Part shown: positions 13,624 through 64,000 of the stretch, piece after piece
Layout of the letters: each line of letters starts with the position of its first letter
Numbering within the stretch: position 1 is the stretch's first letter
From: Acholoe squamosa
Lineage: Eukaryota; Annelida; Polychaeta; Phyllodocida; Polynoidae
Length of the DNA: 64,000 nt
Reading direction: 5' to 3'
NCBI GenBank assembly: GCA_949317995.1
Contig: OX439050.1
Span: forward strand, 54,375,777 to 54,439,776
Notes under the pieces: generated by a model
Told to the model about the DNA's origin: nothing
What the model saw: the letters and a program-made list of their open reading frames with translations, nothing else
Databases searched by the model: none
Program-made: the position numbers and the translations under genes

Positions 13624-13689
13624 AGTTGCTGCTTACTGGTTGCCAATATTTCCAAAAAAGTCATTTATGTAGTTTGAAGTGTTTTCAAA

Positions 13690-21060: not shown

Positions 21061-21276
21061 GTTGACAGAGTGTTTGTGTCCTTGATTCAATAAAAAAACG
21101 AAAAAAACAGGCTGCAGTACAGCAGCCAAGAAATGTAGTAGAAAACAAAATATCATAGATCAAAATAGACCGAAAGAATCAAGTGTGGTAAATCTTAGCA
21201 AAAGAAGCTTACAGAAGATGAATCCAATCTCTTAGAAAAATGGCTGAATTTCTATCCAACACAGAAATCCAACCCT

Positions 21277-22720
21277 GTGACTAAAAGGGAAGACTTGGAT
21301 AGGTTTCATAGAACCTTAAGATTAAAACAACTTTTCTTAAAAGAGTATGAAGGAGGCAGTTGTCCCAATCAGCCAAAAATAACTAACCTATTAGATGCCC
21401 CCTTCAGCAAGGCTGAACTGGAACAGAAATTGAAATCCAAATCAGGGTGGAACCCACCTCCAGGCTCAGCCAACCTGGAGGGGTTCATCACCTGCAATGA
21501 AATTCAACTGTCAAAAAAGGACTATGATGTAAATCTTAGACCAAACATAACGAAATGCCAAAAGAAAGCCCTTAAGGACCTATCCAAAGACAATGAAATC
21601 ATTAGAAAATAAGCAGACAAAAAGGGAGCCACAGTACTCACGAATACAGCAGATTATGTCAAAGAAGTAAACAGGCAATTGAGAGATGAAACCACATATT
21701 TCCCAACACAAAGAGATCTAACTTCCACAATAAATGAGCAAATAAACCACAAGGTTGAGAAGATGTTAGAAAATAGAGAAATCACCTCAAGAATGACAGG
21801 GGCCATCAGAACAGACAATCCAAAAACACCACACATCTACCTCCTTCCAATGATACACAAGGAAATAACCCCACCAGCAGGAAGACCAGTTGTGTCAGCA
21901 AACAATTGTGCCACAGAAAAGCCTTCAGCCTTTGTGGACGATTTTCTGAAACCAATTGTCCCAAAGGCATATGTGAAGGACACAAATGACTTCATTTGTA
22001 AAATAAAGGATCATGAGGCCATAACAGAAAACACAATAATAGGTACATTAGATGCAGGTTTCTTGTACACAAACATTCCCAATTATGAGGGCAATACGTG
22101 AGTGCTTAAAAAAGAATCAGTTCAATGGAAAGACCTACCTTCAAATACAAGGAACTGCAATGGGGACGAAATTAGCCCCATCATATGCAAACCTCTTTAT
22201 GGAGAAGGTAGAATTGGAGTTGATAGAAAAACAAGATCTGAAGCCTGCCACCGGGTGGAGATATATTGATGATATATTCTTCACCTGGGAGCATGGAGAG
22301 GAAGAACTAGAAAAATGGTACAACTCTCTGAATGAAGGACACCCCACAATAAAATTCACAATGGAGAAGACAAAGGAGGAGACACGAAAGTGGACACGAA
22401 AGTTAGGAAAGAAGGGGACAGACTCTATACTGACCTCTATGTGAAACCTACAGACTGCAACACATATCTGAACACGAATCAGCACACCCGCCTGGCACAA
22501 AGAAAAGTCTCCCGTACTCCCAAATCAGGAGACTATTGAGAATCTGTGAGAGGGAGGAGGACTTTGAAGAACACATGGAGAAAGAACTTGAGGAATTTAG
22601 GTAAAAAGGGATACCCGGAACACCTCTTACAGGAATGTGTAAACAAAGTGAAAACAATGAACAGGGAAGACCTGCTAGCCGGAAAAGTTAAGATAAAAAG
22701 ATGAAAAACCAAACACCTAC
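21277..22720 (+). pseudogene. Penelope-like reverse transcriptase
   Basis: The N-terminal region (21277-21612) ends at a TAA at 21610-21612; the same frame continues as ADKKGATVLTNTADY, a Penelope-type block. Further motifs are PHIYLLPMIHKE, GRPVVSANNCATE and catalytic block A, GTLDAGFLYTNIPNYEG. A frame change and apparent loss of some tens of residues lead to YLQIQGTAMGTKLAPSYANL and then RYIDDIFFTWEHG, with both catalytic aspartates kept. Decayed frames follow with TDLYVKPTDCNTYL and RRLLRICEREEDFEEH. The order and the YIDDIF core are those of Penelope-like enzymes. This copy is inactive. Confidence 0.92.
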
Positions 22721-23056
22721 CAGAGGCATAGGAAGCAAATCTTCATTGGGGGAGCCCAGCGGGGGCCCTACTTTGAATTGTAGCCTCAAGCACACTAGCG
22801 CCTATACATACCTCTATAAAATTTGCATCAAAAAGTAATTTTTGATGGATTTTAGATCTGATTTGAGGTTCAGGCCCTCATTTTCCCTATCCCATTACTA
22901 TATCAATCTAATTTGAAATGCAAAGTTTTAGCTTCTTGTTTAATTTATTATAAATTCTTGGCAAATTTTGGGGGGAGCCCAGACATACCCAGGCCCCACC
23001 TCCTTTGTGATTGGGGGGCCTAGGCCCCCCTGCCCCCCCCTTTTCCTACGTCCCTG
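22721..23056. mobile_element. 336-bp DNA transposon inserted in the Penelope-like element
   Basis: Ends cagaggcataggaag and, in reverse complement, cagggacgtaggaaa. Flanks are cctac at 22716-22720 and 23057-23061, a 5-bp target duplication. Removing the insert restores the reading TYLITVYNPENN, a conserved Penelope-type block, which confirms the borders. Internal G/C runs (ggggggcctaggccccc) form a hairpin. The CAG ends resemble hAT-type elements, but a 5-bp duplication is not the usual 8, so the superfamily stays open. Confidence 0.9.
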
Positions 23057-23771
23057 CCTACCTAATAACTGTCTACAACCCTGAAAACAACATTTTGGAG
23101 GAAGTTGTAGACGGGAACAGGACATTTTCGGCAGTGACAACAGAGGAGATTCACAAAGAAAAATACAAAAGGTGTTATAAAAGGTCAAAAAATCTAAAAG
23201 ATCACCTGGTTAGGGCAAGAACAGACTACCACCCAGATAGGGACGAGAAGATCAGGCAACAGAGACAAAGGAAGAGGGAACAAAACCTAGGGAGAAACAG
23301 CTGTGATACTCCCAATTGCAAATATTGCAAAATGATAAATATTACAGGACACATGAAGGGACACTGTTCTGGACATAAACATGAAGCAAGATGGAATGTC
23401 ACATGCAAGAGTTCTAACCTCATCTACTGTATCAGCTGCAAGAAATGTGGCAAAAAGTATGTGGGACAGAACTACAGGAGATTAGGGAGAGACTGGAGGA
23501 ACATATAGGGAGAGCCTATCGACATAAATATGGTAGAAGGAGAAGCAGAGGAGGCAAGAAAGAGGAGAGAAATGAAGTACCTCTCCACTTTGGGAGCAAG
23601 GATCACAATATTGAGGAGAACATGGAAGTTCATATGCTGGACTTTGTAGAAGTACATCCAGAAAGCCAAAGAGCCTTAGAATTAAGGCTCCATATTGAAT
23701 ACAGATGGATCCATAGGATCCACAGTCAAACACCACAAGGATTGAATACAATGAATCACAAGTATGGATGA
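23057..23771 (+). pseudogene. Penelope-like GIY-YIG endonuclease domain
   Basis: The frame reads TYLITVYNPENN, a basic stretch, then a Cys/His cluster (CDTPNCKYCKM, GHCSGHKHEARWNVTCKSS) and LIYCISCKKCGKKYVGQ, the IY.I.C..C...YVG core of Penelope GIY-YIG domains. A frameshift near 23490 leads to a second frame with ERLEEHIGRAYRHK, VPLHFGSKDHN and LRLHIEYRWIHRIHSQTP, whose glutamate fits the catalytic Glu position, then GLN before the stop. Such domains nick DNA for target-primed reverse transcription. The domain is nearly complete but split across frames. Confidence 0.92.
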
Positions 23772-25030: not shown

Positions 25031-26016
25031 CTCGAAGGTTAACCCTTCTGATAAAATAGCCACTGTCAGGTCTGTTTAGAAGATGAATACCTTTATAATT
25101 ATTATTAAAGCTACTACCAACAGAAGTGTCTGGTATAGGTTCTCTCATGTTTGTAAACATACATATAAATGCATTATGTTTATCTCATTAATCTTAACCA
25201 CTCACTGGAGATATGTTTCAGCACCATTTCACTAACAGAATAAGGGTCAATGACCAGAGAATCAAGAATAAGTCATTTATTTGTTAAAGGCTTTTGGTTT
25301 GCACATTCAGTCTTATTAATCCAACAATCTGTGGAGTAATAGTTTCTGCCATTGGTTCTGTTTCATATGTTTGCGGATATTGAGAATACAAATTATTGGC
25401 ATTAACTGAAAACAGATCGCTCCAGTTCCCCGTATTTGCTGAAAGGGTTAGTGAGGTGCCTTGTTCACTTACGGAAATGTCCAATCCAAATCAACTGGGA
25501 GACTCCCACCTTTTAGCTCACTGCAGTTGAACAAAATTAATGTGGTTCTGTTTTTAGACTGTGTTTTAGGAACCATTTGGGATTGGAACAGCCTCTGGGC
25601 TTTTTATCTCTGTGCATGACCCTCTTCAGATGGCATGAGCTCCCCATGTTGATCAAGTGGTATCTCATCATCCACAGCTCAATTCTTTTGTCTGTTGTGT
25701 TGGCACTTTGATTTTGGTTAATTCTTATTAATGCAATAGGCCATTCCCATGAGGGGAGAGATTTGCAAGAATATTATTGTGTTTTGGGGACATCATCCAC
25801 CTTTGATCGCTACAAAGCCATGTCACTCATGATAGATGTTTTGCTTACAAATAATGTCCTTTGCATCCAGATGTAAGGCGTCGTGCAGTTTGCACTCTGT
25901 GCAAAAGGAACACTTTTACATGGTCCGGTCATGAATTTATTCCCTCAGCAGCAGCTGCCCATAGCCACCATGATCTGCTGTCTTTATACAGCTGTCAACC
26001 ACTAACCTACAGTCTG

Positions 26017-28700: not shown

Positions 28701-30174
28701 TATAAAGGATGACTAAATCAGAGGAGACAATGTAGTGATCTCTCAAGTATAGCATTAGGCCGCCAACTATTTTAATCTAAAGGTATCAACCCTTTTCTTA
28801 TACATGGATCTAGTGTTTGTACATATTATTCTTGTATAATGTCCACTTTACATGCTATGCCTCTATGCATATAGCACATATGGGATATGCTTTAGGGCAG
28901 TATTCTATTTCTATTCACTTGTCATCTGTTGATAGAAGTGATAACTGTTGCTGAAAGTGTGCTTTCTCTCACTACCAATGTCACCTTGTGCAGGGGAAAC
29001 ATGCACACCCCAGTACATTAGGCTCTGTGAAGTGCACAAAGGCACAATCCTTTATGACAGACATAGTTATACATTCTCCATTAATTTTGTAGAACAGTGA
29101 AAGTGACTTTGAACAACATGAAATGTATAATAAATGCAAACTACCTTTACACTGAGAGTGTGCTAGCCTATGTTATCCAAATGGGGACATTTTATCTGGA
29201 TAGCCAATCGTGTAGACTCACCTGCAAAATATAGAGAGAACATTTTAAATAAATTCATCAAATCAGATATAAAAAAAATCTCTAGAGAAATGAGGATATA
29301 AGAATATTATCATGCCCATAGGGAATGTTACATCCATTTGATAACAGCCACCACAATTATAAAACGTTTTATCTCATTGACCGGCAGGTTTTTGTTCTTT
29401 TCTTTGCTTAGGCTTTACTTCTACCATTATCTGGTAGTGCTATTGATAATTGACAGTCTGGCAGTGCACATATTGGCTGGAAGCTGGTCTGGAGCTGGTT
29501 CTGGCGACATGCACTGATAAGAACTGACAACATGGGACCAGCATGTCCCTGGAAGTGGGTGTTACCCAGGGACAAGGTACCAGTCATGGTGTGTCGTATC
29601 AGTGGGGTTTACCTCAAATAGCAAAATTCAAAATGGTGGACCCACAGGACATCCATACTAAGCCATATACAACATAAGCAATTGGGTTAAACACATTCTA
29701 CCCATTAAACACATTCTGCCTGTATAATGGCAGGATTATTAAGGTATGACAAACAATAGGAAATGTTTGCATGGCCATTGGATAGTTTTTTCGGAGACCA
29801 TGTTCAATTGATCAGTGTCGATTCATACAACACTCTCCAGTATAGGAGAAATTAACTTTGTGCTGTCACATGCATTGGGACGTCCACACCACCTTCTGTA
29901 TGATTTACTTTGGAACTGTTTCAACATGATTGGGTGCATATATATATCTGACATTATATCTTATATTGAATTAACTGGCAGGTTCTAATTGGTCATTAAT
30001 CCCATAGATAAGTGTTGGCCCCAGGAGACTGGGTGTTATTTAAATCAAGTTAATTTCTAGAAGTGAATTTCTTATTAGCTCACAAAGCCAGTACAGCCAT
30101 TTCTACATTCTGGACTGTATAGTCACAAATGAAACCTAACCAAAACCTGAACTAGCGACCAAATTTTTTTTTTT

Positions 30175-32679: not shown

Positions 32680-32765
<86 letters not shown>

Positions 32766-36997: not shown

Positions 36998-37181
36998 GTG
37001 AGTGAGTGAGTAATAGATGTTTAACGCCATTTCGAGAGCTAAGGTCATATTCATGGCGAGAACTACATTACACAATTTCACAGAGAAATGTGTCAGTGCC
37101 CACGCATATGTGCACCACACACATCCTGAGGGGATAGGAAAGAGGAGAAACAGACCCTTTTAAGTGGGCTAGGGAAGCCCG
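36998..37181 (-). mobile_element. SINE-like element E, copy 1 (184 bp, 10-bp target duplication)
   Basis: Flanked by tcagtcatct at 36988-36997 and 37182-37191. The plus strand begins gtgagtgagtgagtaatag and contains tttaacgccat, aaggtcatattcatggcg and gcaccacacacatcc. The minus strand would end in a tcactcactcac tail, like LINE-type microsatellite tails, so I read it as minus. No A/B boxes are clear. It is related to 55176-55365 at about 90%. Confidence 0.88.
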
Positions 37182-38112
37182 TCAGTCATCTTTCATTTAC
37201 CGATGGATTGAAGAACCCTGGAATTGAGTCCTCTGCAGATATGGCCTATTACCCCAATTGGTATCATATCATTAATTTGTACATTATGTTTTGAGATCTA
37301 GGGACCATTCTAATAGTTAATTTTTAGCACAACATTTTGAGATGTAGGAACATTTAGGAGATATAGGACATTTCTGTGCGTTTTGGGCATAAATATTTGA
37401 GGTCTAGGGATTTTTCTATATGTTTGGGGCAGGCACCACATTTTGAAAGCTTGGAAGAATGAAAATAATTTATGACCTAGGGACCCCAGATATAAATCCT
37501 ATACTACAATAGGTAACCTTTTAATACATTGGGATTTGACCCTTAAATGAATAACTATGGGACATGGGCATTTCGATAGACAGGGGGTTTATACAACTGC
37601 ACTTTTCACCAAGTTCCACATTTCATCACAAAGCACACATTGCATGGGAATTTCACACAGGCAGTCATTGCACCATTGGACATGACTTTGGTGTACAAAG
37701 AAAGTGATGTCAATACTGTTTTGATTGAAGCTTTGAGGAAATAAATGATTTGGCCGTAATAAATGAAGGTTGACATTACAATAAAGAAATAGTGACACTC
37801 AAAGGTTTCTACAAGGATTTTCAATAGGATGTAGTGAAATGATTCTTAACCTTGCAGCATCTGATTGAGTTATGATGGGCAACAGTGGTAAAGTTTACGA
37901 TGGCGATCAGAAAGAAATCTTCATAGATTTGCACACAATTTACTTTTGCTATTGATATCAGTTTCTAGTCAAGGAATCACTTGAAATGATAGATGCATTG
38001 CCCTCCATGAGTCATTTCTTTTTCTATAGATAATTCCTCTGTACATCTCGAAATATTACTATTACGTTTTCACACACACACACAAAAAGCAAAAGTCTAT
38101 AATATTATGCCA

Positions 38113-38113
<1 letters not shown>

Positions 38114-38161
<48 letters not shown>
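38114..38161. repeat. (AT)n array, 24 units
   Basis: Uninterrupted. At the same place units B and C have only about four to five units. Confidence 0.97.
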
Positions 38162-38163
<2 letters not shown>

Positions 38164-40796
38164 GTTCTTTTTTTAAGAGTTGTCATTTAAAAGCTCTAAA
38201 ACACCCAATAAAAAGCAAAAGGTTTTTAAACATGACAGTATATCTGTTTTTAAGGATTGTCATTTGTAAACCCTGAATCACCCAACTTTTAATATTGCAC
38301 TACATTATTCTGTTCACCAGTCTCTCCATGTCAGCATCCATATTGACCTACCCATACTAACGTATAACCCTGCATATAAGCTGTAGCATATAGACCAATT
38401 CATGCCTCTGGGGTGGCTTATAGCATCTCCAAGAATTCAGGGTATGGCTTATACACAGAGCTTTTGTTACATAGAAAAAAAGGAAGGAATGGGGACCATT
38501 TTAGTCTTCTGGAGCAGCTTATAGCAAACCCCTGAACCCAGGGTGTGGCTTATATGCAGGTGTGGCTTCTATGCTACACTTTACGGTACCCTAATCGGAA
38601 TATTGCATCAATTTCTATTGCTGATTAGATTGGGAGCAGACATGCAATGTCACAATACCTTCACGGGAAGAGATTAATGAAAGGGAACGGTGGGAAGGAA
38701 TAAAATCAATCATCCCAAGATTCTTAGGTAAAAATGCAGTATTATAGAAAAACCAATCCAATGCATTTTTATGCAAGGCCTTTGATGTGAACGGCACCTA
38801 ATGCAGAGTCCATGTTGTGCCATTGATAGGGTAGGATGGGTGAGGGGGGGATCAGATGTGTACTCCGAAAGTCCTATTAGGCATGGTCTATATGTTTACA
38901 CACAGTCAGTTTTACAGAAGAAATAGTGCAAAGTCATAATATGTACATTACACAAACCTAAAAGTGCACACCTTAGATGCATTTCCAAGTCTTACCCTAG
39001 GATAATCTAGTTTCACTTAATGTCTATGCAGAGTCTGGCTCTTTGAATTTGTTTTTTTTACATTGCTTTTTAATTCCTGTGATGAGGATTAATCCGTTTA
39101 AACCTACAGTCAGTTGAACAAATCATTCAACATATATATGTGCCCAGTAAACCATCAACTTGTTCATGAATCAATGATCAGCCATCAGGTGGAACAAATC
39201 CTTTCACCTCCTTTAGCTAGCTCTTTAACTTCTAAAGTACAAAGTGTGAGATTAATGTCAAGCTTTTGTTAGGTACACTTGCTTTACACTGCACAGGTAA
39301 CCATCTCATTTGTCTGTTCCAATTTGCTTTGTACATGTCATTTGGTCAGTCATTTAATAACTCATCTCGATGTTCCTTTAAAGGGGGAGCCTAAGGGGGG
39401 GGGGGCATTCTCATTTTCCATACTCCATAATGAATTATGATTATTTGTGGTTCGGTCAAAGAATTGAGCATAAAGGCATTTGGATATAAGAAACATGAGA
39501 AACCTTCCAGTTTCTTTTTATTCTTAACCTTTATGCGGTTTATGTCCATATAGATTCAGTCCAAAATAATTTGCTCTTTTCTCAATTTACAACCGATATT
39601 GATTTCCAATATTTATTTATGTGGTGGATGAAATGCCTCTCTGAGTTGACATTTACTTGTTCTGTAGACCATCAAAATCAATACAATCGACCAAGCACAA
39701 CAATTCGTGTCATGTATTTTTATTCCACATTCTTCATAATGGTGCTCTTTTGTTAAGACCTGTACTATTGTATTGACAAGACCGTGTCCGTGTTCCATTG
39801 GGTGCACATTGCCGATCCAGATAGATACAGTCTGTGGTACGTGATGCTAAGCAGAGGACATTCTGAGAACTTTGAAATCAATTTATGTATTAAGGCACTT
39901 TAGAAACTCTTTTCATCTTCATTTGGAAACACATTGACTCCTAATTTCAGTTAAATGTTAAATGAAATTCTGCACTTCCAAGCTTCCCATCAATGAATGC
40001 AGAGATTCCTGCTTTCACCTTATTGTTAAATAGATAGGCCGAGCTGTCTCTGCAGAACACATTTACCACGTTTCCTCTGCTACATCCAAATGTGGATCAA
40101 TCCATTGTATCAAAGGGTATTCATGAATCCTCTGCGGCTGTGTGCTTGATCCATCTTATCTCATTAGTTCTTCCTGCATAAATAAAAAAGTGTCTGTTGG
40201 GCACTAATCCTACACCATGTGTAAGCCCCAAAATTCAAAAAGGAAATCTAGGTCAATATCCAAATTTGCATATACTTTCTTGATATGTTCAACATATACA
40301 GAAGAGATTTGTCTATGTTGCCATTTTTTAAGCTAAGACGCCATAAAAAGGTCAAGTGACTAGGGCATCGAATATGAGCACATCATATTTCATGGGGGGG
40401 GGGAATAAAATACGGAGGCTGCTCGTTAAACCTATGAAGGTGCCGTATCTACTATGAATTATAGATACATTTAATTATAACAAAGGCAGTCGCACTTGCA
40501 CATGTGTACCAGTCAGGAAGCTCGTCTACATTGGGTTTCAATACTGATACCGGGGTGTCCATATCGACCTGCAAACACTAATGGAAATTTTGTGTCAACT
40601 TCAGTTAGTGGTTACATGGGGGCCAGACATGCAAAGTCACAGTACCTCACAGTGCCGTCCCACGCAACATTGGGAAGAGCTGATGGTAAAAGAAAATCAA
40701 TTATACCCAGATTCCTCAATAGAGAAGCGAGATCATTTCTCAAAAGGTACCGTAGGTATTGTAATTGGATGAAAATTGGATGATTGAACGTTATTC

Positions 40797-40975
40797 AGCA
40801 GGTCATTTCTTAAGGAACTACGACTGCACACAGGCACTAAGATTTAAAACCCCACAACTTGGTGTCAGTAATTATAGGTAGTCCCCTAGGACTGTTCTTA
40901 GCATTTATGTAGATAGTGTTTGGTAGGGCACTGTAGTGCTGTAGATGCATCAGTGACATTCATGATCTCTCACAA
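40797..40975 (+). mobile_element. MITE family M, copy 4 (right end missing)
   Basis: Starts gcaggtcatttcttaagga, then actacgactgcacacagg and gtttggtagggcac as in other copies. No inverted right end is found before the sequence departs from the family. Confidence 0.75.
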
Positions 40976-41147
40976 ACAGTTTTTTTTTTCATATTTGAAA
41001 ATGTAATTAGGTGTCAATAGAAGGTGAATGCTGCGGAATGCAACAGATATTATTGATACTTACCTAATTGTGAACAGCCTAATCAATTGGATGTATGTCA
41101 TTAGGTTTATATGCAGCTTTTTTCTGTTTCTTAAATGTGACTTGAAT

Positions 41148-41224
41148 CACTTCAGTGTTTAGGTGTTTGACATAAGTGTTTAACAGCTAAACACTTAAAC
41201 ACTTCAAGTGTTTAGGTGTTTAAA
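41148..41224. repeat. Cluster of overlapping palindromes at the unit A breakpoint
   Basis: Several aagtgttta and taaacactt motifs alternate. The stretch around 41191-41224 forms a near-perfect inverted repeat of about 17-bp arms, next to a second hairpin (aagtgttta, agc-type loop, taaacactt). The cluster ends exactly where the sequence missing from units B and C ends. Confidence 0.85.
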
Positions 41225-42716
41225 TGCTGGTGTTGAGAAAATTTTGTGTGTATTTTTAAACACCTTCTTTACATTGTAAACTCATACTGTCAAAGAACCT
41301 TGTGAATTTTCCTGTTTTGTAACAGCTAATAACATGACATGACAATTTTGTTGTCATCTTGTTTTGCAATCATCTTATTTGACATGGATTTTCCCAACTC
41401 AATCATAAAAGTTACTATTCTAATGCCAAATGACAGTGGATACATTATTGTACATACGCTGTGTTTGTTGAATGAAAAGTGGTATGATTTTTGTATGTCA
41501 TAGATCTTGAATTTACATCCAGACATAATACCATTGTATATTGTCATTGAGCACTTTAAGCGGCAATGTGAGCATCCAACTCCTCACTACTATAAGTACA
41601 GCTGTCAGACTAGCATCGACTATGCCCCACACTGAATTACGCCCACTTGTGAATCTCTTTTCAAATCAACTGCAGCTGCGATTCTATATGTAAATTGCTG
41701 CTTTCACATCCTACCAACTGTGAGAATTGCATCATTTCAAGCACATTAATTCTAGAGATCATGGAAACCATGCAAACTATTGAAAAGCTTCCACTGCTGT
41801 GGATTTAATACCCTTCCATCGTGTCCCAGATAAAATGGCCAATTTGAATTTCCCCTGCTTCAGTTAGAGAGGCAGAGGTGTGATTATCATTCCAGAGGGT
41901 GTGTTGTGCATTTGGCAGGCTGCTTGATTTCAACCTAATCTAGGGTGACTTTTACACGGGTACCTTCGTTCCAATTCACAACTCAACCCCACACACACCT
42001 GATCTTACCTCAGTGTAGGCAGCTATAAACTAGAACTAATCCTTTTATCTAACACCCAAAACCATATTGTGTGTCAAGATTCCTTTTATCTCAGCTATCC
42101 TAGGGGTTTGGTTGTCTCACAGAATTCTACAATATTGCAGGGTCCATTCCACAAGATTAACCTACCATATATATTATAATATGGTATATTGTACACACCC
42201 AAAATTAGAGTCGCCAGGGTCTTCTAACTGAGCCACATGAAATAAATGACAGGGTTTGCCTTATCTATTTCAAATGCTGCTCCCTTTGAAGACCTCAATC
42301 TCTCATCAGTGTACTCCATGCTAAACTAATTGACCTAGACTGGCTCCCCATATCAGGCTCCTCGGAAATAGCCTCTGGTTCTACTGATAGCCTCTTCTAC
42401 CAGCTATCAAACAAATCTGTCATAAAGAGGATCCATTGGCCCATGTATTGCATAGGACAGTACCCAGCAGATATTGAAACCATAGTGTGGTACCCAGCTG
42501 TCGTAACATCTTGCGAAATTATATTCTGAGCTGGGATCACTTGAATTTAATAATAATATGACCCATACACATTACATGTAATATTATTGCCATTATATAT
42601 AATCAGAAGTTATTTACAATCAATGCTATATATCCTTTGGCTCAAAAATGTTGTCTGCTTCCCTTCTTCATCTGTCTGTGAGTGTGAAAGTCTACATACG
42701 TGCCTCTTTACAAAAG

Positions 42717-45670
42717 GTAACCTTTTAATACATTGGGATTTGACCCTAAATGAATAACTATGGGACATGGGCATTTCGATAGACAGGGGGTTTATACAAC
42801 TGCACTTTTCACCAAGTTCCACATTTCATCACAAAGCACACATTGCATGGGAATTTCACACAGGCAATCATTGCACCATTGGACATGACTTTGGTGTACA
42901 AAGAAAATGATGTCAATACTGTTTTGATTGAAGCTTTGAAGAAATAAATGATTTGGCCGTAATGAATGAAGGTTGACATTACAATAAAGAAATAGTGGCA
43001 CTCAAAGGTTTCTACAAGGATTTTCAATAGGATGTAGTGAAATGATTCTTAACCTTGCAGCATCTGATTGAGTTTTGATGGGCAACAGTGGTAAAGTTTA
43101 CGATGGCGATCAGAAAGAAATCTTCATAGATTTGCACACAATTTACTTTTGCTATTTATGTCAGTTTCTAGTCAAGGAATCACTTGAAATGATAGATGCA
43201 TTGCCCTCCATGAGTCATTTCTTTTTCTATAGACAATTCCTCTGTACATCTCGAAAATATTACTATTACGTTTTCACAAACACACACACACATAAAGCAA
43301 AAGTCTATAGTATTATGCCAGTATATATATTATGTTCTTTTTTTTAAGAGTTGTCATTTTAAAGCTCTAAAACGCCCAATTTCTGGTATTACGCTACATC
43401 TGTTCACCGGCCTCTTCATGACAGCATTCATACAAATATTACTATGATGTTTTCGCACAATAAAAAGCAAAAGGTTTTTAAACATAACAGTATATCTGTT
43501 TTTAAGAATTGTCATTTGTAAACCCTGAATCACCCAACTTTTAGTATTACACTACATCTGTTCACCAGTCTCTCCATGTCAGCATCCATATTGACCTACC
43601 CATACTAACGTATAACCCTATATATAAGCTGTAGCGTGTAGACCAATTCATGCCTCTGGGGTGGCTTATAGCATCTCCAAGAATTCAGGGTATGGCTTAT
43701 ACACAGAGCTTTTGTTACAAAGAAAAAAAGGAAGGAATGGGGACCATTTCAGTCTTCTGGAGCAGCTTATAGCAAACCCCTGAACCCAGGGTGTGGCTTA
43801 TATGCAGGTGTGGCTTCTATGCTACACTTTACGGTACCCTAATCGGAATATTGCATCAATTTCTATTACTGATTAGATTGGGAGCAGACATGCAATGTCA
43901 CAATACCTTCACAGGAAGAGATTAATGAAAGGGAACGGTGGGAAGGAATAAAATCAATTATCCCAAGATTCTTAGGTAAAAAAGCAGTATTATAGAAAAA
44001 CCAATCCAATGCATTTTTATGCAAGGCCTTTGATGTAAACGGCACCTAATGCAGAGTCCATGTTGTGCCGTTGATAGGGTAGGATGGATGAGGGGGGATC
44101 AGATGTGTACTCCGAAAGTCCTATTAGGCATGGTCTATATGTTTACACACAGTCAGTTTTACAGAAGAAATATTGCAAAGTCATAATATGTACATTACAC
44201 AAACTGGTGTTGAGTGTTGAGTGCTGGTGTTGAGAAAATTTTGTGTGTATTTTTAAACACCTTCTTTACATTGTAAACTCATACTGTCAAAGAACCTTGT
44301 GAATTTTCCTGTTTTGTAACAGCTAATAACATGACATGACAATTTTGTTGTCATCTTGTTTTGCAATCATCTTATTTGACATGGATTTTCCCAACTCAAT
44401 CATAAAAGTTACTATTCTAATGCCAAATGACAGTGGATACATTATTGTACATACGCTGTGTTTGTTGAATGAAAAGTGGTATAATTTTTGTCTGTCATAG
44501 ATCTTGAATTTACATCCAGACATAATACCATTGTATATTGTCATTGAGCACTTTAAGCGGCAATGTGAGCATCCAACTCCTCACTACTATAAGTACAGCT
44601 GTCAGACTAGCATTGACTATGCCCCACACTGAATTACGCCCACTTGTGAATCTCTTTTCAAATCAACTGCAGCTGCGATTCTATATGTAAATTGCTGCTT
44701 TCACATCCTACCAACTGTGAGAATTGCATCATTTCAAGCACATTAATTCTAGAGATCATGGAAACCATGCAAACTATTGAAAAGCTTCCACTGCTGTGGA
44801 TTTAATACCCTTCCATCGTGTCCCAGATAAAATGGCCAATTTGAATTTCCTCTGCTTCAGTTAGAGAGGCAGACTGCTTGATTTCAACCTAATCTAGGGT
44901 GACTTTTACACGGGTACCTTCGTTCCAATTCACAACTCAACCCCACACACACCTGATCTTACCTCAGTGTAGGCAGCTATAAACTAGAACTAATCCTTTT
45001 ATCTAACACCCAAAACCATATTGTGTGTCAAGATTCCTTTTATCTCAGCTATCCTAGGGGTTTGGTTGTCTCACAGAATTCTACAATATTGCAGGGTCCA
45101 TTCCACAAGATTAACCTACCATATATATTATAATATGGTATATTGTACACACCCAAAATTAGAGTCGCCAGGGTCTTCTAACTGAGCCACATGAAATAAA
45201 TGACAGGGTTTGCCTTATCTATTTCAAATGCTGCTCCCTTTGAAGACCTCAATCTCTCATCAGTGTACTCCATGCTAAACTAATTGACCTAGACTGGCTC
45301 CCCATATCAGGCTCCTCGGAAATAGCCTCTGGTTCTACTGATAGCCTCTTCTACCAGCTATCAAACAAATCTGTCATAAAGAGGATCCATTGGCCCATGT
45401 ATTGCATAGGACAGTACCCAGCAGATATTGAAACCATAGTGTGGTACCCAGCTGTCGTAACATCTTGCGAAATTATATTCTGAGCTGGGATCCCTTGAAT
45501 TTAATAATAATATGACCCATACACATTACATGTAATATTATTGCCATTATATATAATCAGAAGTTATTTACAATCAATGCTATATATCCTTTGGCTCAAA
45601 AATGTTGTCTGCTTCCCTTCTTCATCTGTCTGTGAGTGTGAAAGTCTACATACATGCCTCTTTACAAAAG
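42717..45670 (+). repeat. Tandem array unit B (2954 bp)
   Basis: Matches unit A except for loss of 38958-41224, replaced by 17 bases (44205-44221, tggtgttgagtgttgag) that partly copy the adjacent tgctggtgttgag. There is also loss of 43 bp between two ggcag motifs (A position about 41876). It directly follows A head to tail with no spacer. Confidence 0.95.
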
Positions 45671-48617
45671 GTAACCTTTTAATACATTGGGATTTGACCC
45701 TAAATGAATAACTATGGGACATGGGCATTTCGATAGACAGGGGGTTTATACAACTGCACTTTTCACCAAGTTCCACATTTCATCACAAAGCACACATTGC
45801 ATGGGAATTTCACACAGGCAATCATTGCACCATTGGACATGACTTTGGTGTACAAAGAAAATGATGTCAATACTGTTTTGATTGAAGCTTTGAAGAAATA
45901 AATGATTTGGCCGTAATGAATGAAGGTTGACATTACAATAAAGAAATAGTGGCACTCAAAGGTTTCTACAAGGATTTTCAATAGGATGTAGTGAAATGAT
46001 TCTTAACCTTGCAGCATCTGATTGAGTTTTGATGGGCAACAGTGGTAAAGTTTACGATGGCGATCAGAAAGAAATCTTCATAGATTTGCACACAATTTAC
46101 TTTTGCTATTTATGTCAGTTTCTAGTCAAGGAATCACTTGAAATGATAGATGCATTGCCCTCCATGAGTCATTTCTTTTTCTATAGACAATTCCTCTGTA
46201 CATCTCGAAAATATTACTATTACGTTTTCACAAACACACACACACATAAAGCAAAAGTCTATAGTATTATGCCAGTATATATATTATGTTCTTTTTTTTA
46301 AGAGTTGTCATTTTAAAGCTCTAAAACGCCCAATTTCTGGTATTACGCTACATCTGTTCACCGGCCTCTTCATGACAGCATTCATACAAATATTACTATG
46401 ATGTTTTCGCACAATAAAAAGCAAAAGGTTTTTAAACATAACAGTATATCTGTTTTTAAGAATTGTCATTTGTAAACCCTGAATCACCCAACTTTTAGTA
46501 TTACACTACATCTGTTCACCAGTCTCTCCATGTCAGCATCCATATTGACCTACCCATACTAACGTATAACCCTATATATAAGCTGTAGCGTGTAGACCAA
46601 TTCATGCCTCTGGGGTGGCTTATAGCATCTCCAAGAATTCAGGGTATGGCTTATACACAGAGCTTTTGTTACAAAGAAAAAAAGGAAGGAATGGGGACCA
46701 TTTCAGTCTTCTGGAGCAGCTTATAGCAAACCCCTGAACCCAGGGTGTGGCTTATATGCAGGTGTGGCTTCTATGCTACACTTTACGGTACCCTAATCGG
46801 AATATTGCATCAATTTCTATTACTGATTAGATTGGGAGCAGACATGCAATGTCACAATACCTTCACAGGAAGAGATTAATGAAAGGGAACGGTGGGAAGG
46901 AATAAAATCAATTATCCCAAGATTCTTAGGTAAAAAAGCAGTATTATAGAAAAACCAATCCAATGCATTTTTATGCAAGGCCTTTGATGTAAACGGCACC
47001 TAATGCAGAGTCCATGTTGTGCCGTTGATAGGGTAGGATGGATGAGGGGGGATCAGATGTGTACTCCGAAAGTCCTATTAGGCATGGTCTATATGTTTAC
47101 ACACAGTCAGTTTTACAGAAGAAATATTGCAAAGTCATAATATGTACATTACACAAACTGGTGTTGAGTGTTGAGTGCTGGTGTTGAGAAAATTTTGTGT
47201 GTATTTTTAAACACCTTCTTTACATTGTAAACTCATACTGTCAAAGAACCTTGTGAATTTTCCTGTTTTGTAACAGCTAATAACATGACATGACAATTTT
47301 GTTGTCATCTTGTTTTGCAATCATCTTATTTGACATGGATTTTCCCAACTCAATCATAAAAGTTACTATTCTAATGCCAAATGACAGTGGATACATTATT
47401 GTACATACGCTGTGTTTGTTGAATGAAAAGTGGTATAATTTTTGTCTGTCATAGATCTTGAATTTACATCCAGACATAATACCATTGTATATTGTCATTG
47501 AGCACTTTAAGCGGCAATGTGAGCATCCAACTCCTCACTACTATAAGTACAGCTGTCAGACTAGCATTGACTATGCCCCACACTGAATTACGCCCACTTG
47601 TGAATCTCTTTTCAAATCAACTGCAGCTGCGATTCTATATGTAAATTGCTGCTTTCACATCCTACCAACTGTGAGAATTGCATCATTTCAAGCACATTAA
47701 TTCTAGAGATCATGGAAACCATGCAAACTATTGAAAAGCTTCCACTGCTGTGGATTTAATACCCTTCCATCGTGTCCCAGATAAAATGGCCAATTTGAAT
47801 TTCCTCTGCTTCAGTTAGAGAGGCAGACTGCTTGATTTCAACCTAATCTAGGGTGACTTTTACACGGGTACCTTCGTTCCAATTCACAACTCAACCCCAC
47901 ACACACCTCATCTTACCTCAGTGTAGGCAGCTATAAACTAGAACTAATCCTTTTATCTAACACCCAAAACCATATTGTGTGTCAAGATTCCTTTTATCTC
48001 AGCTATCCTAGGGGTTTGGTTGTCTCACAGAATTCTACAATATTGCAGGGTCCATTCCACAAGATTAACCTACCATATATTATAATATGGTATATTGTAC
48101 ACACCCAAAATTAGAGTCGCCAGGGTCTTCTAACTGAGCCGCATGAAATAAATGACAGGGTTTGCCTTATCTATTTCAAATGCTGCTCCCTTTGAAGACC
48201 TCATTCTCTCATCAGTGTACTCCATGCTAAACTAATTGACCTAGACTGGCTCCCCATATCAGGCTCCTCGGAAATAGCCTCTGGTTCTACTGATAGCCTC
48301 TTCTACCAGCTATCAAACAAATCTGTCATAAAGAGGATCCATTGGCCCATGTATTGCATAGGACAGTACCCAGCAGACATTGAAACCATAGTGTGGTACC
48401 CAGCTGTCGTAACATCTTGCGAAATTATATTCTGAGCTGGGATCACTTGAATTTAATAATAATATGACCCATACACATTTCATGTAGTATTATTGCCATT
48501 ATATATAATCAGAAGTTATTTACAATCAATGCTATATATCCTTTGGCTCAAAAATGTCGTCTGCTTCCCTTCTTCATCTGTCTCTGAGTGTGAAAGTCTA
48601 CATACGTGCCTCTTTAC
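45671..48617 (+). repeat. Tandem array unit C
   Basis: Differs from B at only scattered positions by eye, for example acacctcatc versus acacctgatc and a 2-bp deletion in tatatatta. It shares both B-type deletions, so B and C come from one shortened ancestor. It ends at gtgcctctttac, where unrelated sequence begins. Confidence 0.95.
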
Positions 48618-50310: not shown

Positions 50311-51284
50311 TTGGAGAGGACAAAATCAGTCCTGTGGCCACTAGTTCCCCAACGTTAACCCTTCTGATAAAAGAGCCATTGTCAAGTGTGTTTAGATGTT
50401 GATATCTTAATATATAATTATTAAAACTACTACCAACAGCAGTGTCTGGTACATGTCCTCTCATGTTTATGAACATCAATATAATGTGCATTAAGGCATT
50501 ACTTTCTTTTCTCATTATTTTTTATATATTCACTGAAGATACGCAAGTGTGTTGTGCTGTTTCAGCCCATCAGCTCACAAAACAAATAAGGTTCAATTAC
50601 CAGAGAATCAAGAATTTGTTGTTTAAATGCTCTCAGTTGACAAACTTGATGTTGTTCATAAGTAGGGTAGTCAAAACTCCATACTTTATTGCAATAACAA
50701 AATGCCATTGAGTTCTGCAGGCCAATAGTTTATGCCATTGGCAGGGTTTCATATGTTTGGTAGCATTGAAAGTACTCGGTATTAGCTGAAAATAAATTGC
50801 TCCAGTTCCCCTTTATATTATTGCTGAAAGGGTTAGTGAGGTGCCTTGTTCACTTACGGAAATGTCCAATCCAAATCAACTGGGAGACTCCCACCTTTTA
50901 GCTCACTGCAGTTGAACAAACATGGTTCTGTTTATAGACTTTGTTTTAGGAACCATGCATGCACTCCTTCAGATGGCATGAGCTCGCCATGTTGAACAAG
51001 TGATATCTCATCAGCAACAGTGCATTGGTTGTGTTTCTGTTCGCACTTTCATTTTGGTAAATTCTTATGAATACAATAGCCCATTCCCATGAGGGGAGAG
51101 ATTTAAAAGAGAACATCTCCAATATCATCCACCTGTGATTAAGAAATGCACTGCAAGAATCTGGGATTCTCTATTTGTTGGTGTATGTATACATTGTGAG
51201 GATCTGCCATTTTTGAGCATTGAATTCAGCCGTGTGATGTGTTATGAATATGAGACATAATATTGTTGTTTGGAGTTGTGTGCC

Positions 51285-52555: not shown

Positions 52556-53243
52556 TGGATATCAGTCACAAGTCATGACATTTCCATTAACTACTTATTT
52601 TATTACACGACTAATCAATAGATAATCAATAGAAAATCAATAAATATAATTTGAAAACAAAAATCGTTCCCCTCCACTGGGCCTGCCATAGTGTGTGTAC
52701 ATACATCATTTGGTCTGAATGCGTCCCGCAGTCATTGCAGTTATAGGAGCAGCAGCAGTAGTGCTGGGAAGGGGTTGGCGAGAATGCATATCCTAGTGTT
52801 AAGGCCTGGTCAATTTGCCACTTAGTAAGGAGGTTTAGGTAGTAGACAGTACTAATACAATCTCAGGTGTATAAACAGGGAAATATGGTATGTAGCTATG
52901 GGACAGGCAGCTCTGACCACTGTGGTGTAATCTTAACTTAACTCTACTGCTGCTATTCTCGTCAGTCCCTGTGGCACACTGCATAGGGAGTTGGATTTGG
53001 GATCAGGAGACTACAGGTTTGACCCCTACCCGGGCAATAAAAATTTTGTGGGTTTTAACATGTAATATATGACATGTAAGATGTACATATTATCCATGGA
53101 TAACCCCACTGGGTGCCTGTTATCCTTGGATAACCCCACACCTTACAAAAGTCATAATGCATGCATCATGCCATGCAATATCGACAGGTATATGCATGAG
53201 AATATCCAGGAAAAGCACTCAGAATCACAGATATTGTGTAATT
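52556..53243 (+). mobile_element. Composite tRNA-derived element, copy S2 (D2-specific)
   Basis: The left segment (acaagtcatgacattt, ctacttattttattacacga, aatcaatag repeats, ttgaaaacaaa) and the right Arg-like SINE (52961-53243) match S1. The middle (about 52700-52960) is unlike S1 and S3 and has no tRNA-like minus-strand box. D1 near 28990-29030 lacks it: ttgtgcagggg and ctgtgaagtgc are close together there, so left segment and SINE appear to have arrived together. Confidence 0.72.
52961..53243 (+). mobile_element. tRNA-Arg-like SINE, copy S2
   Basis: Head gtccctgtggcacactgcat, B-box-like aggtttgaccc (weaker than S1), body ttgtgggttttaacatg, two ggataacccca motifs with attatccatggat palindromes, and gcaatatcgacaggtat. 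The most diverged of the three copies. Confidence 0.75.
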
Positions 53244-54068
53244 TAAGTTCTGTGAAGTGCACAAAGGCACAATCCTTTATGACAGCAATGGTTATACATT
53301 TTCATTTTGTAGAACAGTGGAAGTGACTTTGGACAACATGAAATGTATAGAAAAATGCAAACTACCTTTACACTGAGAATATGCTAGTCTGTGTTTTGTC
53401 CAAATCAAGACATTTTATCTGGATATCCAATCATGTAGACTCACCTGCAAAATATAAAGAGAACATTTTAAATAAATTCATCAAATCAGATATGAAAAAG
53501 AAAACTCTAGAGAAATAAGGATATAATGATATCATAATGCCCATATGGAATGTTACATGCATCTAATAACAGCCATCACAATTATAAAACATTTTATCTC
53601 ATTGACCTTCAGGTTTTTGTTCTTTCCTTTGCTTAGGCTTTACTTCTACCATTATCTGGTAGTGCTATTGATGACAATTGACAGTCTGGCAGTGCACATA
53701 TTGGCTGGAAGCCGGTCTGGAGCTGGTTCTGGTGAATTGCACTGATAAGAACTAACAACATGGGACCAGCATGTCCCTGGAAGTGGGTGTTACCCAGGGA
53801 CAAGGTACCAGTCATGGTGTGTCGTATCAGTGGGGTTTACCTCAAATAGCAAAATTCAAAATGGTGGACCCACAGGACATCCATACTAAGCCATATACAA
53901 CATAAGCAATTGGGTTAAACACATTCTACCCATTAAACACATTCTGCCCGCATAATGGCAGGGTTATTAAGGTATGACAAACAATAGGAAATGTTTGCAT
54001 GGCCATTGGGTAGTACAGAGACCATGTTCCATTGATCAGTGTTGATTCATACAACACTCTCCAGTATA

Positions 54069-54471
54069 CGGGACTAGCACATTGCTAGTTTTAAGAAAAC
54101 CAGCCAGGTGGCTAACCTTCAACTGCTACTAGATAAGCATATTATAAATCTAATACTTTAAATACAAGAGAAATACAACTTTAAGATGTAGATAAGAGAT
54201 GACATGTCACCCACATTGAGTACACCCATCATTGTCTCATTATTAAGCTAATCCTCTCCCCTCACACCTGAAACAATAGGGAGGTACTTAGGGTGGTTAA
54301 GATATGGGCAGGGTGCAGCTTATCTCCCCTATCAGTCTTATCAATGGCCATTGTTTTGTGGTGGATGAGGGTCAAGATAAGAAATTACCCAGAATTCCCT
54401 GACAGAATCCAAGATGGCGTTGGGGCTAAAAACAAAGATGGCGACCTCCATAGAGGGATAGCTATGTGCCC
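54069..54471. mobile_element. 403-bp insertion flanked by TATA (D2-specific)
   Basis: Flanked by tata at 54065-54068 and 54472-54475. The collinear D1 site reads cagtataggagaaatt (29839 on) with a single tata. Ends cgggactagc and, in reverse complement, gggcacatagc are only weakly alike. It contains two aagatggcg motifs. No coding capacity. Confidence 0.8.
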
Positions 54472-55175
54472 TATAGGAGAAATTGACTTTGAGCTGTCCA
54501 CATCCATTGGGACGTCCACACCACCTTCTGTATGATTTACTTTGGAACTGTTTCAACATGATTGGGTGCATATATATATCTGACATTATATCTTATATTG
54601 AATTAACTGGCAGGTTCTAATTGGTCATTAATCTCATAGATAAATGTTGGCCCCAGGAGACTGGGTGTTATTTAAATCAAGTTAATTTCTAGAAGCAAAT
54701 TTCTCATTAGCTCACAAAGACAGTACAGCCATTTCTATATTCTGGCCTGTATACTCACAAATGAAACTACCATACTCACAAATGAAACTCCAGACATGTG
54801 TCTTAAAAGAATGTCGATGTGTTTCAGCTGTGCTATTTCTATGTAAAGCAGTCTTAGTAGTGGATATCAAGCCCCATTAGATGATGAGTTCCCAAACTCA
54901 GCACCTCCCCTCTCCCCTGTCACTCTGTGTTACTAATAGGATGATACCTATGGATGTCATTATCAAACAGAAAGCTATGTGCCATCTGCATGAAAGTCCC
55001 CAAGTATTAGGACTAGGCCAGTAATATGAATATAGAAATGCTGTATCATTGGAAGACTGCATCATTGAATGCAGTCCTGAAAGCACACATAGAATCAGGG
55101 ATGGGGGGCTCAATAAGCATCAGAATCCCTAATATAATGCCAACAGTATACACACCTTTCATAGTGCTCACTTCA

Positions 55176-55365
55176 TGAATCCTTCCCGGCTTTCCTATCC
55201 CACTGAAAAGGGTCTATATCGCCTCTTTCCCATCCACTGGGATGTGTGTGGTGCACATATGCGAGGGCACTGACACATTTCTTTGTGAAATTGTGTAATG
55301 TAGTTCTCACCATGAATATGACCTTAGCTGTCAAAATGGCGTTAAACATCTATTACTCACTCACT
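55176..55365 (+). mobile_element. SINE-like element E, copy 2 (190 bp, perfect 12-bp target duplication)
   Basis: Flanked by catgaatccttc at 55164-55175 and 55366-55377. D1 has the single-copy empty site at 31686-31697. The plus strand starts ccggctttcctatccc, contains ctgggatgtgtgtggtgcac and ggcgttaaacatctatta, and ends in ctcactcact, a TCAC-type tail. The variable 10-12 bp duplications fit LINE-driven insertion. Confidence 0.93.
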
Positions 55366-57815
55366 CATGAATCCTTCACTGTAACTTCTAAAGGGGTCGG
55401 ACCTCATACAAGAGGCAATGCCTGGTATGTAGGGCAATACATATTGATGCTGAAAACTGTCCTTGCTGGTAGTTTTTAGGAGAGGGGATATTACTCCCAG
55501 CGTGGAATAGGTCTGGGAGTGCAGGAGGAAATAAGCTCAAGAGAGCACTAAGTAGGTACCCTCTCAAGTCACGCTCTGCTTCACCATTACTTACATTCTC
55601 ATCACATTACCCCTGAAAAGCCACCTGCCTTGTTTAAAAATAGTGTGTATTAGAAAAGCAAGTACTTTACTGTATGACTTCCTTTCTAGTGCTCTTGTTA
55701 TGAGTAGCCATCATCTTCATTGAAAGGTACTTGCACCTGACTGACATGAGCACTTCTGTGCAACACATAAAAAAGTCAGGACTGAAAATACTGTGGCAGG
55801 TGAGGCACTTCCCAAGCAAAACTTCCTTTTCTCCTATGTGCAACACACTCCAGGGAAGATGTCACAAATATTCTATTCACTAGGCTCCATTAGGAAATGA
55901 ACTACTTCTGATTCCTGTTTGCATTACTGTGATCAAAATTACTTATACCGTAGAACCCCATGTGGAGTACGCAGACGTCTAGAGTTTGTGGGTTTGTGCC
56001 CCGACACTTTTTCAACACTTAAAAGCTATGTGTAGCTTCGACCTCTTTGGAACCCCTAAGACCTAATAAATCTTTGTGTATAAGGTACAGTTTGTGAGCA
56101 GGTTACTATGGGTATGAACAAGGAACTGTAGACATGTATCCATATCATCTATTTTCATAATGAAATATGAGCAAAATAGTGGGTTCTATTTCTCTAGAAT
56201 AATATTGCTACAAGATTGCATGCTAGATTTCCTGAAGCTCCTTCCAATTAAGCCCCTTCCTGCTACCCATCATAATCATTAACTAGTATAATTATGTCTT
56301 GAGATCTAGGGACCATTCTCTTTAGTTAATTTTGAGCACAACATTTTGAGATTTACACTGCAGAAATGGTGTTTAGGTTTTAAATTTGTTTAGGTCTAAA
56401 ATAAATGCGGGCCTACTGGAGCTTTCTGATACCCAGTGTACCTGTACACTGATCAGGGTGTATTTCACAATGGTTCAATCAACAGTTAGTACTCATTCAG
56501 AATGCCTTTGGAGAATTTGGAGAATCATATCCAAGCAGCATTTTGTGTACTAGGCCAGGGTCTTACTATTATATTTTTCCGGCCATGGCTATCTTCACCA
56601 CAGAGCACTGAGAAGTGTAATTTATAAGCACTACTAAAATTGTATTAGGCCTGATCTATATGTTTAGGCTTCATCAGGTGTACAAGAAAAATAGTAAAAA
56701 GTCACAATACATACACGATACAAACCTGAAAGTGGTCACCTTAGAAGTTAGATGAATTTCCCAGTCTAACCCTTCCCTAAACCTGTTTAGTCTCACTTAA
56801 TGTCAATGTAGTAGTGGAAGGCAGATTCTGGCTCTTTGTTTGTTTTTCAAATTATTTGGCCATATTGGGCCATTGTCAGGAAACTAAAAACCTTGAATCG
56901 GGGGGTTTTACTTTGCTATTTTAGCTGCCGCGGTGAGGATTTAGCTATTTTATACCTACAGTCAGTTCGACAATGTATGCCCACCAAACCATATACTTGA
57001 TCACAAATTAATGAAGGTAGCCATCAGGTGGAACAAATCTTTTCATCTCTTTTACCCGCCCTCCTAAGTCCAAAGTGTAAGATTAATGTTGTGCTTTTGT
57101 TAGGTACACTTGATTTACACTGCATAAGGAACCATCTTGTTTGTCTGTTCCCATTTACTTTGTACATTTAGTCAGTCATTTAATACCTTTTCTCCACCTA
57201 TGCATTGTCTTGTTCTGCACTCCATCATGAATTATGATCATTTGCGATTTGTGCAAAGAATTAAGCGTAAAGGAATTTGGATATAAGACACATGAGAAAC
57301 CATTCAGAGTTTCCTTTTACTGTTTTCCTTTATGCGGTCTGTTTCCATATAAATTCACTCTGAAATCATTTGTTCAGTATACAAACAATACTGGTTTAAA
57401 ATATGTATTTATGTGTTTGATGTGATACCCCTCTCTGAGAAGACTTTTACTTGTTCTGCAGACCATTATAATCATTTATACAATTGACCAGGCACATGAA
57501 TTCTTGTCATGTTGTTTTTTTATTTCACATTTTCATAATGGTGCTCTAGAATTAAGAAATGCACTGCTGTGTTAACAAGACTGTGTCCATGTTCTAACAC
57601 AAGAAGCCCATTTCCATCAGCTGCACATTGCCTTTCCAGATAGATAGTCCTTGGTATGTGACAGTAAACAGAGAACATTGTGGGAACTTTGAAATAAATT
57701 TATTTGTTAAGGCACTTTAGAAACTCTTTGCATCTTCATTTGAAACCCGTTGAATCCTAGTTTCAGTTAAATGTTCAAATCCAACACTCCAGAATTTGAC
57801 TCTCAAGCTTCCCGT

Positions 57816-62239: not shown

Positions 62240-62952
62240 TCTGTGACCTAGATAAAGTTATAAAAAATAAAATTGATGCAAATGTTAGAAAGGATATTGT
62301 ATCTGACCTTGATAGATTGGCAAATGACCCAAGGCAGTTCTGGAAAAAATTTAACATTAACTGGAAAGGTGAAACTTCGGACAGTGCAGTAGCGTTGATT
62401 GATGAGAATGCAGATAGAATATAAGAGGGCCCAAATGTGGCTGACTTTTTCAACTCATACTATACCCAAGCTGTCCTCTGTCATAGGGATAGTGACTTGG
62501 GTAGATTTGGCCGGCAGCTAAATCAGGCCGATTTGTTTGAGTTAGTCCCTGTTAATTTGGATGAGGCCATCAAATTAATAAAAGTTCAAGACCTCTATAG
62601 CTCGAGAAATCGGGGTAGTTACTCAGTCATAGCCTTCCTCGATCTGAGGAAGGCCTTTGACACGGTCGATCACTCGTTACTATTGTCTGAACTTTGTTTT
62701 CTGGGTGTCTCTGACACAACGGCTGACTGGTTCACCTCATATTTGTCAGACCAACCACAGTGCTGCAGAGCGAATAATGTAACATCCTGCCTGAGCATCA
62801 TCAAATGTGGAGTCCCACAGGGATCGGTGCTCGGGCCACTGCTTTTCTTGATTTATATTAATTCAGTGCATACACAAATCAGAAACTGTAAATATTTGCT
62901 TTATGCTGATGACCTTGTAATCTATACTCATGGTACTAACTCGGCTGCATGA
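62240..62952 (+). pseudogene. LINE linker and reverse transcriptase with internal deletion
   Basis: The linker reads NDPRQFWKKFNINW, then after a frame change VADFFNSYYTQAV and DEAIKLIKVQDLYSSRNRGS. In related elements about 100 residues of finger motifs (ksSG.D, P.pK, yRPis, nqfGF) lie between IKLI and the helix before motif A; here they are absent and the frame stays open. Palm motifs follow intact: AFLDLRKAFDTVDHS (A), GVPQGSVLGPLLFLIYIN (B) and YADDLVIY (C, both Asp kept). A frame change near 62940 ends it. Confidence 0.9.
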
Positions 62953-63641: not shown

Positions 63642-64000
63642 TTAATATTGATGTATTTAGTTCACTCTTATATATGGATATGTTAAATTATGACTAGCAG
63701 TTGTTGCCCCCTAGACCGGTATATCAACCCAGAACCATGTCTGTGATGGATGCATTTTGTATAATATTTGTTATGTATACGCGGCCTTGAATATATTGTC
63801 ATGATCTGTATTTGCTATATAATTTGGTCGTACTGAGGAACTTATTGTATTAATATGATTCTTGACCAATAAAACCTTTTTCAACAACAACAATGTTTAT
63901 CAAACTACAACCCACCCTTTGGTCCTTCTCCAATGCCACTATCAAGTGGCTTGCATTCTATTACTTCCAGTTCTGAGTTTAATCAATATTGAAAATATAA

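Follow-up and report, generated by a model that had tools for sequence, protein, structure and literature searches.

A tandem triplication in the polychaete Acholoe squamosa with a mosaic middle copy and a flank-copied filler at a shared deletion

Three head-to-tail copies of one unit lie side by side in the window, by which we mean the whole 64,000-nucleotide stretch of Acholoe squamosa DNA analysed here (contig OX439050.1), and the middle copy joins the left part of one neighbour to the right part of the other. The pattern of differences among the copies suggests that a crossover between a long and a short copy made this hybrid, after a tandem duplication and a deletion closed with a short filler; we give this whole history a probability of about 0.72.

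Self-comparison of the window placed the three direct copies, all on the forward strand, like the other parts of the array and the older paralogue below, at 37508–42711 (unit A, the long copy, 5,204 bp), 42712–45665 (unit B, the short mosaic copy with a C-like left and an A-like right part, 2,954 bp) and 45666–48617 (unit C, a short copy, 2,952 bp). Unit A matched B and C over 37505–38209 and 38206–38957, and 41208–45665 matched 44207–48617. The starts of B and C are 2,954 bp apart, and the extra length sits in A. Because the matches run for kilobases at 97–100% identity, the triplication is not due to chance. The direct order of the copies, their spacing and their identity agree, bearing out the tandem triplication proposed by an earlier sequence-only reading. 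The unit start of 37512 given there was wrong; the unit begins at 37508, directly after a 3-bp TAC microhomology common to the left flank (37505–37507) and the A/B join (42709–42711). The same TAC stands at the B/C join (45663–45665), and the two joins have the same sequence except at 45654, where B has a private substitution. The sequence comes from a chromosome-scale assembly (1.48 Gb in 63 contigs), and the 264 kb examined contained no N.

Three-way alignment and self-comparison showed that 2,267 bp of A (38958–41224) are absent from B and C, precisely at the coordinates noted earlier. The alignment also showed that 81 bp of B (43381–43461), shared with C, are absent from A between 38209 and 38210, and that 43 bp of A (41877–41919) are absent from B and C. 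The older paralogue described below agrees with A in 41 of the 43 columns of this last gap, indicating that the 43 bp were lost by B/C. Microhomology was expected at every junction, and this expectation failed: it was found as TAC (3 bp) at the unit joins and as CAAT (4 bp) at the 81-bp loss in A, against a baseline of 6.1% of random pairs with at least 3 bp and 2.0% with at least 4 bp. The ends of the 43-bp loss have no exact microhomology, GGCAG being one mismatch away, and none was found for a simple join of the ends of the 2,267-bp loss.

Judged from the sequences at its two breakpoints, the short form carried by B and C is the derived state. At the left breakpoint, an older paralogue of about 70% identity (56609–57791), which served as an in-window outgroup, aligns with 38841–39974 and crosses 38957/38958 without a break. 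The right breakpoint cuts a 139-nt remnant (41140–41278), recognised by a family search, of a dispersed hairpin-rich repeat, and B and C retain just the last 54 nt of it. The full-length repeat, which we take on our own reading to be a MITE, is about 306 bp long and ends in TACACTGTAAAAA and TTTTTACAGTGTA. A search of the assembly for this repeat gave 1,316 first-look candidates, 40 of which were scored. The form that A has before TGCTGGTGTTGAG was present, with small variants, in 31 of 31 sampled copies (29 loci), although these were the best matches to A and by themselves form a biased sample. Thus, the unbroken paralogue on the left and the family form of the repeat in A on the right both mark the short form as derived, and on these two grounds an insertion in A in place of a deletion in B/C was rejected. 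As for a transposon insertion in A, the paralogue runs past the left end and no matching bases were found at the two ends. The sequence-only reading had named an ancestral short form as the outgroup state that would speak against it, and the paralogue instead carries the long form at the left breakpoint.

At the place of the missing 2,267 bp, B carries a 17-nt filler (44205–44221), and the alignment places the same 17 nt in C at 47159–47175. The putative template, read from the sequence and evaluated by shuffling, is TGGTGTTGAG at 41228–41237 of A. The filler consists of TGGTGTTGAG followed by TGTTGAG, a second, partial copy corresponding to 41231–41237; TGC and then the template itself come next. 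When the filler was compared with the 30-nt right flank, its longest match of 10 nt was reached by 54 of 20,000 shuffles, and its full coverage by words of at least 6 nt was equalled by only 3 of 20,000, which upholds the proposal that adjacent bases were copied twice in part (10 nt + 7 nt). When the comparison was widened to two 99-nt flanks and both strands, these figures weakened to 207 and 81 of 20,000 shuffles, respectively. Among 17-mers drawn from the window as a control, 90 reached a 10-nt match and 6 reached full coverage in 200,000 draws, a number that includes the draws starting at 37–49 kb, which were skipped and not separately counted. A search of the 1.48-Gb assembly for the 30-nt junction pattern, allowing up to 2 mismatches, hit B and C and nothing else, and the reversed-pattern control gave 0 hits. 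A variant of the dispersed repeat was considered as the origin of the filler and rejected, the junction pattern being confined to B and C and carried by 0 of the 31 sampled repeat copies.

An end-joining reading of this junction is plausible, and polymerase theta would be the likeliest enzyme. Inserts templated in trans are described for polymerase theta end joining in the excerpts of PMC5730883, and those of PMC11724358 treat templated insertions as an indicator of that pathway. The junction had been called a signature of polymerase theta or of template switching; a flank-copied insert at a junction unique to the locus agrees with this, whereas the scar does not single out an enzyme, since template switching at a replication fork would leave an identical one. 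Only one base (C) precedes both filler and template, so that the match at the supposed priming site is 1 base. An origin from classical end joining at staggered ends or from fork template switching, with no part for polymerase theta, is a possible but less probable source of the 17 nt. In its favour, the excerpts of PMC5730883 state that cNHEJ tandem duplications can resemble templated inserts, and hairpins at 41150–41223 could stall a fork; against it, the copy and the template lie three bases apart (TGC) and a second, shorter copy follows, as in repeated copying rather than in one exact tandem duplication. We consider it very improbable that, instead of a filler, the 17 nt represent diverged remains of 41207–41224 of the repeat. 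BLAST does extend the A/B alignment to 41208, and both stretches have GTGTT words, but 471 of 5,000 shuffles score as well, A's form is present in each of the 31 repeat copies sampled, and A and B are so alike in the adjoining right arm (only about 0.3–0.5% difference) that a cluster of at least five changes within 17 bp would presumably be exceptional.

The deleted end next to the right breakpoint contains the two hairpins just mentioned (41150–41223). The 45-nt segment at 41180 had the lowest folding energy among 2,400 such segments in 37–49 kb, and in a scan of the whole window the segment at 41181 ranked 15th of 12,790. The end of a hairpin arm lies 3 nt from the right breakpoint, a proximity spotted post hoc that carries no probability. 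We regard it as doubtful that the deletion started at these hairpins of the dispersed GTGTTTA/TAAACAC repeat. If it did, copies of this large family may be recurrent break sites with flank-copied deletion scars genome-wide, and together would offer a natural record of error-prone end joining in an animal so far unstudied.

The mosaic structure of B was evident from the three-way alignment. All differences that separate A from B and C (A-versus-BC) lie left of A41920, and all that separate C from A and B (C-versus-AB) lie at or right of A42001. Between them is an ancestry switch interval of 81 bp that is identical in the three copies (A 41920–42000; B 44874–44954; C 47828–47908). We counted 42 A-versus-BC events. 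The left arm contributes 30 substitutions (including 37510 beside the join) and 5 indels, the right arm 4 substitutions plus the 43-bp gap, and the A38103–38205 region and the 2.27-kb loss were each scored as one event. The C-versus-AB events numbered 9 (8 substitutions and one 2-bp indel), and the B-private substitutions at 45493 and 45654 were set aside. The two classes stand in perfect order, with a chance of 6.6e-10; for the right arm alone (5 versus 9 events), the chance of a clean order is 1.0e-3. The C-versus-AB events occur 9 times in 711 bp versus 0 in 2,243 (P 2.6e-6), and the A-versus-BC substitutions 34 times in 2,079 bp versus 0 in 711 (P 7.7e-5).

Outgroup states gave the direction of change at some of these sites. 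Derived states are common to B and C at 38926, 41486, 41617 and 41854 and in the 43-bp loss, and common to A and B at 42298; C alone carries the derived state at 42001 and 42472, as A alone does at 41495. Two overlapping alignments gave opposite polarity for site 42235, which was dropped, as were four apparent sites at 38841–38844 that reflected a one-base alignment offset. Clearly polarised support for shared A–B ancestry on the right thus consists of one site, 42298. The statement that B and C are almost identical was accurate for their first 2,243 bp, which have 0 differences, and not for the last 711 bp, which hold 10 substitutions and one 2-bp indel. In contrast to this, the right part of B differs from that of A at only 2 of 710 sites.

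These features correspond to what unequal crossing-over leaves behind: the switch falls inside 81 identical bases at corresponding positions, the middle copy is recombinant (42 versus 9 events, with derived states on both sides and one clear A–B site), and the joins at both boundaries are equal apart from the B-private 45654. Unequal crossing-over between long and short copies is therefore the most likely last step. Speaking against it, the switch does not fall in either of the longest identical stretches between A and C (261 and 236 bp).

In the proposed history, a unit of about 5.2 kb would have been duplicated in tandem at the TAC microhomology, so that two long copies, U1 and U2, lay side by side. 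Once these had diverged somewhat, mutagenic end joining would have removed from U2 the 2,267 bp that separate 38957 and 41225; in this event the left end was perhaps extended on the right end as template, copying TGGTGTTGAG, slipping back and copying TGTTGAG before joining. Much later, U1 and U2 may have misaligned between sister chromatids or near-identical homologues, and a crossover in the 81-bp identical stretch of the right arm would have added the hybrid, with B composed of the left of U2 and the right of U1. If the second join arose by homologous exchange, it should repeat the first. The identity of the left parts of B and C (0 of 2,243) and the near identity of the right parts of B and A (2 of 710) imply that the exchanging partners were nearly identical, either sister chromatids or like homologues. 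Duplication first and deletion second is the simplest order. The sequence-only reading had proposed duplication, deletion and then duplication of the shortened copy; its deletion step is in keeping with the derived short form, but its last step is not supported in that form, since B is a mosaic.

The mosaic also affects dating. Across the 2,953 bases compared, only 2 substitutions are younger than the exchange, and 8 of the 10 B/C substitutions are older than it, so that the suggested count of B/C differences would overdate the last step about fivefold. Copies A and C differ at 30 of 1,346 sites in the left arm (2.2%) and at 12 of 1,444 in the right arm (0.83%; P 0.0028). This divergence in both arms indicates that the first duplication is much older than the exchange. 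The inequality between the arms is not predicted by one duplication at a constant rate; the right arm may have undergone an earlier exchange.

Other origins of the array were weighed against this history. It is unlikely, though not negligibly so, that the genome holds only A and C and that an extra turn of a repeat loop during assembly printed B as the left of C plus the right of A. The match of B to C on the left over 2,243 bp, and to A on the right with only 2 of 710 sites differing, is what such a loop would give. The B-private substitutions at 45493 and 45654 speak against it; the chromosome-scale assembly with its gap-free 264 kb and the limited A–C identity of just 81 bp at the switch also count against it, none of these points being decisive. 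About equally unlikely is that the deletion came first, as a polymorphic short allele, and that the array was built by joining a long and a short allele. The A–C divergence of 0.8–2.2% lies within the allelic diversity of marine invertebrates and would fit. This origin requires an exchange between homologues at a 3-bp microhomology, a kind of event usually less common than those confined to one chromatid or its sister, and it leaves the mosaic of B unchanged.

Still less probable is a duplication of the entire shortened U2 with later conversion, by A, of the right end of B. The identical left 2.2 kb of B and C would be explained, but two events are invoked where a single crossover suffices, and because the second join equals the first, homologous exchange is still required. 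If C had merely mutated after such a duplication, the excess of its changes at the right end would be very unlikely (P 2.6e-6, as above). We therefore retain the crossover between long and short copies as the favoured origin of B, and consider the third copy probably real beyond this assembly.

The DNA of the array is apparently non-coding. The units contain three ORFs of at least 90 aa (100, 91 and 91 aa), and a Pfam scan of unit ORFs, with the C copy of the 91-aa ORF left out, gave 0 matches in 5. With no recognised domain in these five and no ORF longer than 100 aa, no function is proposed for the unit beyond its history. The array is surrounded by at least three older tandem blocks that start near 15.7, 49.2 and 67.4 kb, and matches of 70–86% link 15.7–48 kb, 49.2–66.2 kb and the block starting at 67.4 kb with one another. 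The second older block, to which the paralogue 56609–57791 belongs, holds one copy of the unit (counterparts of 38841–39974 and 41290–42507), with about 6 kb between the halves; the older copy of the right arm lies there at 63979–65663, just beyond the window. A search of the assembly with 38841–39140 hit the three units alone and did not pick up the 70% paralogue, showing that such genome searches are blind to old copies here.

Several other features of the region were recorded. Part of A (38339–38512) has matches at many genomic sites, among them arrays with a period of about 100 bp on contigs C14, C7 and C12. The segments 29018–30135 and 53243–54767 share 1.1 kb at 92–96% between old blocks that otherwise agree at 70–80%, with stops in six frames; the second is about 400 bp longer, near 54069–54471, and the high identity may reflect either recent conversion or constraint. 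Between 25401–25530 and 50781–50915, about 80 bp are identical within 73% blocks, and this stretch could be a minus-strand 48-nt exon between CTGCAG and GTAAGT, the candidate splice sites being placed by eye. A further young tandem duplication (97%) lies at 32735–33700/33951–34911; it opens with a CT run and closes with a 78-bp minisatellite. Fragments of non-LTR-type reverse transcriptase are located at 12691–13632 (minus strand) and 62425–62952 (plus strand), Pfam RVT_1 being matched by 3 of 10 ORFs scanned. The ORFs at 21199–23771 presumably belong to a Penelope-type element, which they resemble to our eye; no Pfam match was found among the three scanned. A roughly 180-bp dispersed repeat containing GAGTGAGTGAG occurs at 36998–37181 and 55188–55367, about 90% identical between these copies and present several times in the 264 kb examined.

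The array is a well-resolved new instance of known, ordinary processes. Duplication at microhomology, deletion with a flank-copied filler and homologous exchange would each be recorded separately within a single 11-kb stretch. An in-window outgroup supplies the direction of change, the order of events can be followed unusually well, and the locus can serve as a teaching case. It also carries a warning: where the middle copy is a mosaic, a count of differences taken from the closest pair of copies puts a date on the wrong event.

The closest parallels come from three known systems. With respect to segmental tandem duplication with copy-specific deletions, the locus is similar in being surrounded by older duplicated blocks at 70–86%, and differs in that a young triplication is nested within them. 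The filler junction resembles polymerase theta-mediated end joining, as portrayed in the excerpts of PMC5730883 and PMC11724358, in combining a deletion with a short direct-orientation insert whose template flanks the opposite end, with more than one round of copying. It differs in having one matching base (C) at the supposed priming site, where microhomology of 2 or more bp is typical, and it is a single scar, inherited by two copies and known from its sequence alone. In the maize q-gamma-27 locus, the excerpts of PMC6904753 report that a tandem duplication became a triplication by unequal crossing-over, with alleles from Sab to Rabb. There as here, two tandem copies would have become three by a misaligned exchange, with copy types in the ratio of one to two. 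The maize event involves a gene and was seen in pedigrees, whereas the present one is deduced from one assembly, and here the point of exchange is mapped to 81 bp of the middle copy.
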